Shown here: piece after piece, positions 31,558-36,012 of the stretch
Numbering within the stretch: position 1 is the first letter of the stretch
Layout: each line of letters opens with the position of its first letter
Assembly: GCA_019639135.1 (NCBI GenBank)
Contig: JAHBSL010000007.1
Location: 1-64,000, forward strand
Direction: 5' to 3'
Length of the DNA: 64,000 bases
Source: Acidobacteriota bacterium
Lineage (GTDB): Bacteria > Acidobacteriota > Blastocatellia > Pyrinomonadales > Pyrinomonadaceae
The notes under the pieces: model-generated
The model's input: the letters and a program-made list of their open reading frames with translations, nothing else
Told to the model about the DNA's origin: nothing
Database searches by the model: none
Position numbers and translations under genes: made by a program

Positions 31558-32502
31558 TCAATATGACCCTAAGTCCAAAGCGGTCAGCAGTTCATCGAAA
31601 GCCGTGGGATCATCGCCAAAACCGGCAAGCCAATAAGCATCGGGCTCTTTGCGAAACCACGTCCACTGCCTTTTCGCATAGTTTCTAACGTCCTGTTTCG
31701 ACCGCTCGACGGCACTTTCAAGCGTCCGCTCACCTCGCAGATATTCGCAGACCCGCCTGTAAGCATGAGCCCCGAGCGCGTTCCCATATTGGTTTACGCC
31801 GCTGTCCAACAGATGTTTCACCTCATTGACGAGTCCGTTGCGGAAATGCGCCTCGGTCCGACGGTTTATCTTGTCGTAAAGAGTCTTCCGGTCGGGATCT
31901 AATACAAAAAGCCGGACCCGATCAGCAAACTCCGGTGGCTCCGCCCTCTCATACCAAACATCGGATATCCTCCGTCCGGTCTGGAAGTAATGCTCCAGAG
32001 CTCGTATCACCCGAACCGAATCATTGGCCTCAAACTCGGCCGCGGCCCCGGCATCTACCCGCTGCAGCATTCTATATAAATGATCATTCCCGCGACGAGC
32101 GAGAATATTCCTCAGCCGTTCGCGAAGCTCCCTATCGGTCTTCGGGCTTTCGAAGAGCGGCTGTCGCAGCGTTCGCAGATAGAACCCTGTTCCGCCAACA
32201 AGTACGACCCGCTTGCCTCGGGCCTCGATCTCACGTATCTTCTCCGCCGCGTCGCGTGCCCAATCGGCTGCCGTGTAATTCACATTCGGATCGACATAGC
32301 CGATCAGGTGGTGCGGAACGCCGTCCATCTCCTCAGCGGTCGGCTTCGCAGTCGCGATCTCGATCCCGCTGTAGATCTGGACTGAGTCGAAATTGACGAC
32401 CTCGCCGTTAAGGGCCTTTGCGGCTCGGACGGCAAGTGCCGTCTTCCCGGAACACGTCGGCCCGGAGATAGCAATGATCGGGTTTTTAGGACTTGCGGCC
32501 AT
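31558..32502 (-). CDS. miaA: tRNA dimethylallyltransferase
   Basis: A 314-residue enzyme that adds the dimethylallyl group to A37 of tRNAs reading UNN codons. It shows P-loop GPTCSGKTALA, the DSVQIYSGIEIATAKP motif, PHHLIGYVDP, VLVGGTGFYLR, the swinging-domain segment and YAKRQWTWFRKEP. The length is normal. It is followed by hfq, and preceded by a 28-codon frame and a restriction-nuclease-like gene. Confidence 0.95.
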   Translation of the reverse strand: MAASPKNPIIAISGPTCSGKTALAVRAAKALNGEVVNFDSVQIYSGIEIATAKPTAEEMDGVPHHLIGYVDPNVNYTAADWARDAAEKIREIEARGKRVVLVGGTGFYLRTLRQPLFESPKTDRELRERLRNILARRGNDHLYRMLQRVDAGAAAEFEANDSVRVIRALEHYFQTGRRISDVWYERAEPPEFADRVRLFVLDPDRKTLYDKINRRTEAHFRNGLVNEVKHLLDSGVNQYGNALGAHAYRRVCEYLRGERTLESAVERSKQDVRNYAKRQWTWFRKEPDAYWLAGFGDDPTAFDELLTALDLGSY

Positions 32503-32516
32503 TGGCGGAAGCGGGA

Positions 32517-32603
32517 TCAGAACGTGGCTCTTAAAACCGCAACGAAAAGAACGGCCGCGAGCACGATCAGCGCACCTTCGACCTGTTTGCGGGAAAATCT
32601 CAT
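32517..32603 (-). CDS. 28-residue single-pass membrane peptide (candidate)
   Basis: ATG at 32603 overlaps the TGA of the upstream 276-residue gene (ATGA) and reads MRFSRKQVEGALIVLAAVLF, then VAVLRATF and TGA at 32517, 14 bases before the miaA ATG. The peptide has a basic start and a hydrophobic helix of about 16 residues. Overlap geometry and composition suggest a translated small membrane protein. No homologue is claimed. Confidence 0.5.
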   Translation of the reverse strand: MRFSRKQVEGALIVLAAVLFVAVLRATF

Positions 32604-33430
32604 TTCATCTCAAAGACGAGCGATGGGTTCATCTTGAACTGCAGCATCTTCGCCGTTTCGCGGCCGCCATCGCCGCCCTTTCGCTGCATCGTGATCCGGC
32701 CGATCTTGAGGTTTCCGCTGCGGGTGATCTCGACCGGCCCGTCGGCGAAAAAGCGTATCGCTTCATCTGTTGTCACGATACTCCACCGCGTTTCGCGGCC
32801 CGGTTTCCAGGCGACCATGAAAAGGTCCGCCCGGCCGTTTCCCACACCACGAAGCAGGTCGGCGACGATCCGCTCCTTGTTCGCCGCAAAGAACTCGACC
32901 ACGGCGTTTCGAGCTTCCTTTGACATTTCGGTCAGGAACATCCTCTCCGGCCGCCGAGCTTTCCCGGTCGGTGGATCCTCTCCCACGAAAAGCCTGAGAG
33001 CCGCTTCAACATCCGGCGGGATATTCCACATCTTCGCATACTGCCGCAGCCAGCGTTTGTCGATCTGATTGAACCCGTTCGATCTGCTCACCAACTTAAT
33101 CGAAATGCCGTGTCGCCGCGGTGTCCCGTCGCTCTCGGTCACCGTCACGACCACATCGGCTTTCTCGCCGCTCGGTTTTGCCGCCGTGACATCTTTGATC
33201 GCAGATGTATCGTACCCGATAGCCGTTAGCCACGCCCGAGCGTCTGCATCATCTCGCCAGTTGATGAACTTGTCGCGAATGTCATTCTCATTCCGAAACC
33301 CGCCCTTCGCCGTCACCGACCCCCGCTCCGCCGCAGGAGTTTGAGCCAAGCACCCCGCTACGAGTGCAAAAAGAACTACTCCCAGAAACAAAGGGACTGT
33401 TACTGTCGGTGGGCGTGATTGGTGGAACAT
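32600..33430 (-). CDS. Restriction-nuclease-like protein with a signal peptide
   Basis: A 276-residue protein. The body (from about residue 42) begins RNENDIRDKFINWRDDADAR and contains EKADVVVTV followed about 15 residues later by HGISIKLVS, a D-(x)n-(S/E)xK arrangement of a PD-(D/E)XK nuclease. FNQIDKRWLRQYAKMWNIP, EMSKEARNAVVEFF and the C-terminal ITMQRKGGDGGRE, AKMLQFKMNP follow. From memory this resembles type II restriction endonucleases. The first 30 residues (VPLFLGVVLFALVAGCLAQ) look like a lipoprotein or Sec signal, which is odd for such an enzyme. A GTG at 33316 with GGAG 9 bases upstream could give a cytoplasmic form. No methyltransferase gene is near. Confidence 0.6.
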   Translation of the reverse strand: MFHQSRPPTVTVPLFLGVVLFALVAGCLAQTPAAERGSVTAKGGFRNENDIRDKFINWRDDADARAWLTAIGYDTSAIKDVTAAKPSGEKADVVVTVTESDGTPRRHGISIKLVSRSNGFNQIDKRWLRQYAKMWNIPPDVEAALRLFVGEDPPTGKARRPERMFLTEMSKEARNAVVEFFAANKERIVADLLRGVGNGRADLFMVAWKPGRETRWSIVTTDEAIRFFADGPVEITRSGNLKIGRITMQRKGGDGGRETAKMLQFKMNPSLVFEMK

Positions 33431-33669: not shown

Positions 33670-36012
33670 ATGACCAAACTTTCGATGATTCGATTAGTGT
33701 CGATTATTTGCGTTGGATTCTCATCTGCATTCGGTACCCCCCGTAGATGTTCCTTCAACAATTTTCGAGTTAGCTCCGAAGCCTTACCGATTTGACAAAA
33801 GCTCTGTGATCGAAGAAAAGAACTCAGGCGGAGTTGACCGAACACTTGGCTACTGGTTTCTTTTTCGAATTGTTTCGGGATTTGAGGCCGAAGCAAGAAA
33901 GCAAACCGCCGAAGGGCGCTTGAACCGGGCTGCATTTCTTTGGAAGATGCTGGAAAGAAAGACAGGAGTTGGTTTTGCGCAAGCAATTAATATAAAGAAT
34001 TATGCGTCCCAGTTAGAAGTTGAATTCGGTTGTATTTCGACGCGACCACGATCTCAGGCCAGTTCATCTGCTACACGCAAACAATTAATCAGTCTAGAAC
34101 TTGAAGATAGGATCATAGGATTTCGGGATCAATTGCGTGACCAGTTGAACGAACCTAACTACGCAAAACTTGAGCAATTTGTTTCGAGCATAAACACCGA
34201 TCGGCCTTTTGATCCTCAGTCAATTCGTCAGCATCGCTTTTTCTTTGGTTTTTTTTCCGTTGACTACGACTTCACAGCTAATGAGGTAGTCGGATACTCC
34301 TATACCGATATGCCGCCCGGTCATTGTACCTACTCAGAGAATATTGTAGGAGCCACGCTTTCGAGCGATTCACTCGGTATCGTGGATACAGGCTGGTCTG
34401 AAGCGTGCGCAGAGATTGCTCAAGTATTCCTATACTATTCAAATCCGCTGCCAGATGATAGGTTCTGCGTTGATGGTGATCACGCATATGTCAAGACTTT
34501 TGGTCGGCAGATTGCCAGTGTTGGGTCGTATTGTGCTTCTGGTAAAGTGCAAAATCTGCCACCATCGGAAGATTGTCTAGTCACCCCTTCCCTTCCAAAC
34601 GTTACAAGTGTTTCACTTGAGGTAATAAATCCAGGAACGATTGGAATTGACCAAAATCCCAATATCGGCGGAGGACTTCGAGTTTTCCCCGATGATGATG
34701 TCCCTGGAGACACAGTTGATCGAAGGCAACTTCGCGTTACGGCTCGTATCAACGAAAACAGGGCTGGCGTTGAAGTGTTCTTTCGTAATTTCGACCTTGA
34801 CGATCCTTCCACCGACACAACAATAGATCCGAATGGTACTGCAGGAGACGACAACATCGGAGAAGTTGGGGGCAATACTGCCGGCCAGCTTGCGGCGAAT
34901 TCGGCCCTTACGAATAAAACGGAGAGGCATCGGTTGTTTTCACCGTGACGAGACAGCCCGGCGATAATTTCACGATCGCCGCCGGTGTTAATCAGAATGC
35001 GATTTCTGGTGTTGCTGTCAACGGGACGGAACTTGTTACTGGAAGCGGGGCATCCATCGATATAAATTGTGACGGAACTGATCTGGTATGCAGGACCGAA
35101 ATGCTTACGGTTTGGCGAAGGCTGCATATAGAAGTTGATTCGATGGGGGCGTCAAACAGTAATTTTGTACTCGGCAATTTCGGTGAATCTGCTCGGGTCG
35201 GTGGAGTTCCTGTTGAGGTGCAGGTCAATGTAGCCAACCCGCTCGAGGTCAATCGCTTTGAAAATGGCCGTCTGGCTTCGGGAGGAACGAACTTTATCGT
35301 TGTGGAAAACAGTGCTAATTCGGTGACGATACGTTCTCCGTTCGGACAAACTGTTAGAGTGAACCAGAGCGAACTTTTTCAGTTATACGACGACGACGAT
35401 TTCGACGATGACGGCGGGTTATTGAACGGCGATACCGGCGAGGATATTGCTGAACCCGATACGTCTTTACTAACGGCAAATAGCGATGATCCGAACACAA
35501 ATATTCTCGCTACTGCATACATCCGGCCCGTATATGACATTGTGGATACACGCGATAATTTAATCTTTGCTCCTAATGTTATGTCTGATGCGCCGGCTGA
35601 CATACGTGCCCTTTTTGTTGCGTGGGACTCAAGTGGAACAGACACTTCTGATGAGTTTTGGTCTGTTTATTTGCTGGGTTCTTATCAACACACTGTAGAG
35701 GAAGACAGAGATCCAAGTACCGAAGATTTGACTCTCGGGATTGTTGATGCAGTTACAACGGTATCCGGTGAAGGAAGCGGAGCTTTAATTTTCATGGAAG
35801 CGCATCGCCCAACTGAGTTTCCTGGGTATAATCCGTCTCCGACGCATTTGAGCAGCATGGCTGTTACGGTCGCCCATGAAATTGGACATTTATTTTCATG
35901 TCTGCATGGAGATGGCGGCTTGATGGGGACAAATCCCCAGACCGGTGAACCTGTTTCAAACCAACTTAGTCCGATGTTGATCCGTAAGATTCGGACGATT
36001 ATGCATCCGTAG
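33670..36012 (+). pseudogene. Secreted zinc-metalloprotease-like gene split by two frameshifts
   Basis: Three reading frames join into one product of about 780 residues. ATG 33670, with AGGAG just upstream, encodes a signal peptide (MTKLSMIRLVSIICVGFSSA). At a C6 run near 33739-33744 the frame must lose one base to continue as VDVPSTIFELAPKPYRF, which runs to about 34918. There an A4 run needs one more A so that TNK(N)GEASVVFTVTRQPGD continues in the third frame, open to 36012. The C-terminal part has TVAHEIGHLFSCLHGD, a metzincin-like HExxH zinc site with a third His. The product would be an exported protease. The lesions are homopolymer indels, so assembly error is a live alternative to pseudogenisation. 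Confidence 0.7.

Follow-up and report, generated by a model that had tools for sequence, protein, structure and literature searches.

A predicted exported homologue of R.HinP1I without a linked methylase in a genus of Pyrinomonadaceae that avoids GCGC

The window analysed here, a 64,000-nt stretch of an Acidobacteriota genome, contains an open reading frame (Table 1) whose product is almost certainly a homologue of the restriction endonuclease R.HinP1I that carries, judging from its N-terminus, a signal for export from the cytoplasm. The target of R.HinP1I is GCGC, and GCGC avoidance within the genus tracks the presence of the endonuclease gene. The full explanation, which is somewhat favored, is that an active, exported, GCGC-specific enzyme of the HinP1I type works without a methylase and would act as a barrier to incoming DNA.

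Table 1. Coordinates of the endonuclease gene, its predicted parts and its conserved neighbour in the window
Feature	Position	Strand	Basis
HinP1I-family ORF, 276 aa	32600-33430	(-)	ORF with the motifs quoted in the first-pass annotation
Mature R.HinP1I-family endonuclease (predicted), residues 30-276	32603..33343	(-)	PF11463, 1ynm, AF2/Foldseek
Sec signal peptide (predicted), residues 1-29, probably cut between CLA and Q by signal peptidase I; overlaps a non-conserved lipobox LVAG-C	33344..33430	(-)	hydrophobic core and xAQ site
GTG codon of Val39, suggested as a second start; not conserved	33314..33316	(-)	variable column in relatives
Catalytic Asp92 (= HinP1I Asp62)	33155..33157	(-)	invariant column D56, alignment A1
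Ser110-Ile-Lys112 (= HinP1I Gln81-Val-Lys83)	33095..33103	(-)	alignment A1; Lys invariant, Gln replaced by Ser
miaA, conserved downstream neighbour, then hfq, tmk	31558..32502	(-)	PF01715

The identity of the ORF product was established from both sequence and modelled structure. A match to Pfam family PF11463 (E=1.4e-53; 182 bits, against a curated cut-off of 25) spans profile positions 1-205 of 208 and is the sole Pfam domain found, the PADLOC type II REase model REase_II matches at E=3.9e-70, and R.HinP1I itself (PDB 1ynm), over its whole length, matches residues 34-274 at E=5e-60; on these alignments the resemblance to restriction enzymes is far beyond chance. An AlphaFold (AF2) model, built from a five-sequence alignment and having a pLDDT of 86.5, shows the PD-(D/E)XK fold of the HinP1I/MspI type, with the HinP1I–DNA complex 2fkc as its best Foldseek match (TM 0.92), followed by 1ynm (0.89) and MspI (0.66). 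The PD-(D/E)XK relationship suspected in the first-pass annotation thus survived the fold search, and the motifs it had pointed to proved to be well chosen, in that the ADV contains the catalytic Asp92 and the SIK contains Lys112. Both residues are invariant among the 29 homologues of alignment A1, as are N85, Q86, D88, K89 and QRKGG. In HinP1I, the catalytic residues are Asp62, Gln81 and Lys83. By sequence and predicted fold, then, the product is a member of the R.HinP1I endonuclease family.

The likeness to R.HinP1I of Haemophilus influenzae P1 (PDB 1YNM, 2FKC) amounts to ~41% identity over the whole enzyme and extends to the catalytic Asp and Lys and the motifs GFNQIDK and QRKGGDxGR, whereas the genus enzyme has an added predicted signal peptide, a Ser at the position of Gln81, no linked C5-methylase, and a chromosomal inheritance across a deep genus. 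Enzymes of the same family are found in the HinP1I-type restriction-modification loci of genome G364 (L099), a Spiroplasma citri plasmid (CP047439), Mycoplasmopsis gallopavonis and a phage contig (L162), which, unlike the genus enzyme, have a C5-methylase directly adjacent and no signal peptide on the endonuclease. Two of these, L099 and L144 of Spiroplasma citri, likewise have SxK in place of QxK, and since methylase-linked homologues carry the Ser too, it need not mark a dead enzyme; together with the purifying selection described below, this speaks against an enzyme killed by the replacement of Gln81. Elsewhere in the gene, in-frame insertions of ~23-49 residues lie between the catalytic Asp and SIK, in a loop that joins two strands, in L078, L082, L083 and L093, and share the motifs PQSRKDAE and PPALAGG, which suggests a dispersed repeat element entering coding genes in the genus.

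The part of the protein that precedes the HinP1I-homologous region was judged by hand criteria (n-, h- and c-region and cut site), with starts chosen by hand and ATG preferred, and by these it has the n-, h- and c-region and the signal peptidase site of a Sec signal, conserved in the orthologues. The best 12-mer of the window ORF has a Kyte–Doolittle mean of 3.05, and an extension with a positive start and a strongly hydrophobic core (best 12-mer mean 2.33-3.38) was found in 37 of 37 genus carriers, 36 of which have xx[AG]Q as the cut site. None of six homologues outside the genus has such a signal-like extension; five of the six, including methylase-linked ones, begin 6-12 residues before the GSxTAK motif, and the phage-contig homologue L163 has a long N-terminal extension that is not hydrophobic. 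The export signal on a restriction-type nuclease, which had been flagged as unusual at the outset, is therefore supported by both sequence and comparison, and the orthologues keep the signal and do not start at the internal GTG. That GTG, at 33316, does exist and had been offered as the start of a second, cytoplasmic form, but it is not conserved because the codon sits at a variable position, occupied by Q, E, A, N, K, R, D or S in relatives; as all 37 carriers have an extension that resembles a signal peptide, a mis-called start is ruled out along with the internal one. The accompanying suggestion of a lipoprotein signal had to be given up as a conserved feature as well, since the window species has the LVAG-C lipobox but its nearest relatives, L084 and L086, have no lipobox Cys at the cut site. 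What the alignment points to as the conserved feature is an ordinary Sec site of the AxA-Q type, probably cut by signal peptidase I, and export of the endonuclease by the Sec pathway is predicted on that basis.

The gene is present in 37 of the 41 genus genomes examined (34 of 37, then G061, then G060 and G063) and absent from 11 genomes of nine sister genera in the same family; among 396 sampled genomes of the phylum, a homologue occurs in only two other genera. The same-strand order REase–miaA–tmk, with the endonuclease ~0.8-8 kb upstream, recurs in 23 of the 33 other genus loci read, part of the remaining 10 being on short contigs, and this position across loci marks the endonuclease gene as inherited with the chromosome and not mobile. 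No fixed partner other than miaA–tmk was found in the genus loci read. A phage origin was rejected, as no phage record matched and the few viral contigs with homologues hold ordinary relatives. With dN/dS between relatives of 0.04-0.19, at dS from 0.5 to saturation, the gene is under purifying selection; a single carrier copy, that of G002, looks frameshifted, and the copy in G006 is broken by an assembly gap. Near miaA in the non-carriers there is no recognisable remnant of the gene, and in a single-gene miaA tree G029 belongs to a separate supported clade, while G012 and G015 may stand for one loss or for two. At positions 33713-36012 of the window, two overlapping same-strand ORFs have no Pfam match, the second having an HExxH motif (AHEIGHLF), and a frameshift may have split a single metalloprotease-like gene into this pair.

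A methylase is regarded as indispensable to a type II restriction enzyme, which would otherwise cut the host chromosome. No methyltransferase adjoins the endonuclease in the window, as the first-pass annotation had already observed, and a genome-wide search, which covered the C5-methylases of PF00145, returned no such gene in 16 carriers, including the near-complete G003, G009, G027 and G061. The window genome has a single PF00145 gene, located on another contig and matching the HinP1I-linked type at 34% over 112 aa, and some congeners hold C5-methylases that are likewise unlinked. With no linked methylase and a predicted location outside the cytoplasm, the endonuclease is not a type II restriction-modification system.

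A dead or unspecific enzyme would be expected to leave GCGC unremarkable. In 25 carriers, however, the observed/expected ratio of GCGC under a third-order expectation is 0.23-0.59 (median 0.42), a ratio under 0.78 being treated as avoidance by Rusinov et al. (PMC4687349), and it is equally low in carriers sampled away from the endonuclease locus (median 0.39), which excludes a sampling effect of the locus. Three congeners without the gene have ratios of 0.71, 0.74 and 0.58, and the 11 genomes from nine sister genera lie at 0.85-1.23. CGCG, which has the same composition, is not avoided in the genus (0.87-1.02), and among 4-bp palindromes GCGC ranks first or second in strength of avoidance in nearly every carrier. 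When protein and codon usage were held fixed in codon-preserving shuffles, the ratios came to 0.28-0.66 for the carriers, 0.69-0.88 for the non-carriers and 1.16-1.56 for the sister genera, so that a codon or dinucleotide artefact is ruled out by the shuffles, the third-order expectation and the comparison of all 16 palindromes. Deamination of methylated GCGC is an unlikely source of the avoidance, because GTGC is raised without a rise in GCAC and 16 carriers are without a C5-methylase. The difference between carriers and the three non-carriers gives p=0.001 in a Mann–Whitney test, which ignores relatedness and in which the non-carriers are draft genomes; the contrast between genus and sister genera is one evolutionary event, and the key contrast is one gain and a few losses, mostly in drafts. 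Site avoidance persists as traces after restriction-modification is lost, and such traces are common for lost systems (PMC4687349), with which the intermediate values of the non-carriers fit. It is highly probable that the enzyme is active and GCGC-specific, and the combination of these properties with export also very probably holds.

In the mechanism proposed, the HinP1I-type enzyme would leave the cytoplasm through the Sec pathway and work without a methyltransferase, its export separating it from a chromosome that still holds roughly 8,000 GCGC sites in 4.09 Mb (242 were counted in 124 kb of the window genome, ~two per kb). An unopposed active HinP1I in the cytoplasm would destroy the genome, and export would thus allow life without the methylase. 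Once in the periplasm or on the cell surface, the enzyme would cut foreign DNA in transit, be it transforming, phage or conjugating DNA, whereas the DNA of kin, being GCGC-poor, would be spared, so that own and foreign DNA seem to be told apart by location and site avoidance, not by methylation. Uptake by transformation is plausible, since ComEC, the DNA-uptake channel, occurs in 38 of the 41 genus genomes. Residual contact of the enzyme with the cell's own DNA, through leakage of the precursor, cell damage or the filtering of kin DNA acquired through transformation, might keep up the genome-wide avoidance; alternatively, the avoidance might be driven by GCGC-free kin alleles outliving the periplasm during uptake. 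Among the roles considered, an attack on incoming DNA is the most likely, and the balance for and against a barrier of this kind outside the cytoplasm is about level. Against DNA that is injected through a phage tail, a periplasmic enzyme with a 4-bp target does not seem an obvious barrier. A more tentative proposal is that of a methylation-free, compartment-based and sequence-specific restriction in which site loss is driven by the filtering of transformed kin DNA, which would make such filtering the mirror image of DNA uptake sequences.

The main rival is an extracellular nutrient or biofilm DNase, in which a restriction fold was recruited to obtain nucleotides or phosphate. The Sec signal peptide would suit it, and there is a precedent in Mm19 of Mycoplasma meleagridis, a surface nuclease of the RE_AlwI family for which a nutrient role has been proposed (PMC4807054). 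Mm19 is alike in placing a restriction-enzyme fold at the cell surface, but it belongs to another family, has a methylase adjacent, degrades DNA and RNA broadly, and was reported with a membrane topology and not with a cleaved signal peptide (PMC4807054). Scavenging needs neither specificity nor contact with the cell's own DNA, however, whereas the HinP1I motifs are kept here and it is exactly GCGC that is avoided, which makes this explanation unlikely. The export signal and the avoidance in the cell's own DNA would also be compatible with a released antagonistic nuclease that hits neighbours or the DNA of lysed cells and partly spares GCGC-poor kin, but the protein has no delivery domain and only miaA–tmk as a fixed neighbour, and of the explanations weighed this is the least probable.

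Two further explanations start from ordinary restriction-modification, which GCGC avoidance also accompanies when the system is cytoplasmic (PMC4687349). The gene might be the relic of a GCGC system that lost its methylase and whose enzyme was inactivated or exported, the avoidance being an old trace; the linked C5-methylases of homologues elsewhere, the frequency of such traces and the changed Gln81 speak for it. Yet the low dN/dS and the invariant catalytic D and K show a maintained function, the three congeners without the gene avoid GCGC less strongly, and only the G002 copy looks frameshifted, so a relic is improbable. Somewhat more improbable still is an enzyme that stays in the cytoplasm, its N-terminus being a membrane anchor or a start artefact and its GCGC sites being protected by an unrecognised methylase, e.g., of the m4C type. 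The restriction of the methylase search to PF00145 leaves room for such a protector, as do the unlinked C5-methylases of some congeners, but the N-terminus is signal-like with a cut site in 36 of 37 carriers, the homologues in restriction-modification loci do not have it, and the 16 carriers have no PF00145 gene.

A type II enzyme has persisted through a deep genus in the absence of its methylase partner, apparently by means of export. If the favored explanation, that of an active exported enzyme facing incoming DNA, is true, it would represent a second way of making sequence-specific restriction safe. It would join SNIPE (PMC13190303), a nuclease that spares self by location and not by methylation, as a case of location-based discrimination between self and non-self, although SNIPE combines GIY-YIG with DUF4041, acts at the cytoplasmic face of the inner membrane and has no 4-bp target; neither GIY-YIG nor DUF4041 was found by Pfam in the ORF product, for which PF11463 alone was returned. 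The literature searched, which lay mostly outside subscription journals, contained no account of a site-specific restriction enzyme that is exported and has no methylase. The genus would also lend itself to a natural experiment on the causes of restriction-site avoidance, because a few relatives without the gene show weaker avoidance. CATG is also low throughout the genus (median 0.56, vs 0.84 in the sister genera), and there may be, or may have been, a second, CATG-directed enzyme. In the sister genera G337, G387 and G419 (L116-L117, L119/L142 and L122-L123) GGCC is wholly or all but wholly missing from 40 kb samples (observed/expected 0.00), and G337 is also nearly without GTAC (0.05) and CATG (0.09), an extreme form of palindrome avoidance.
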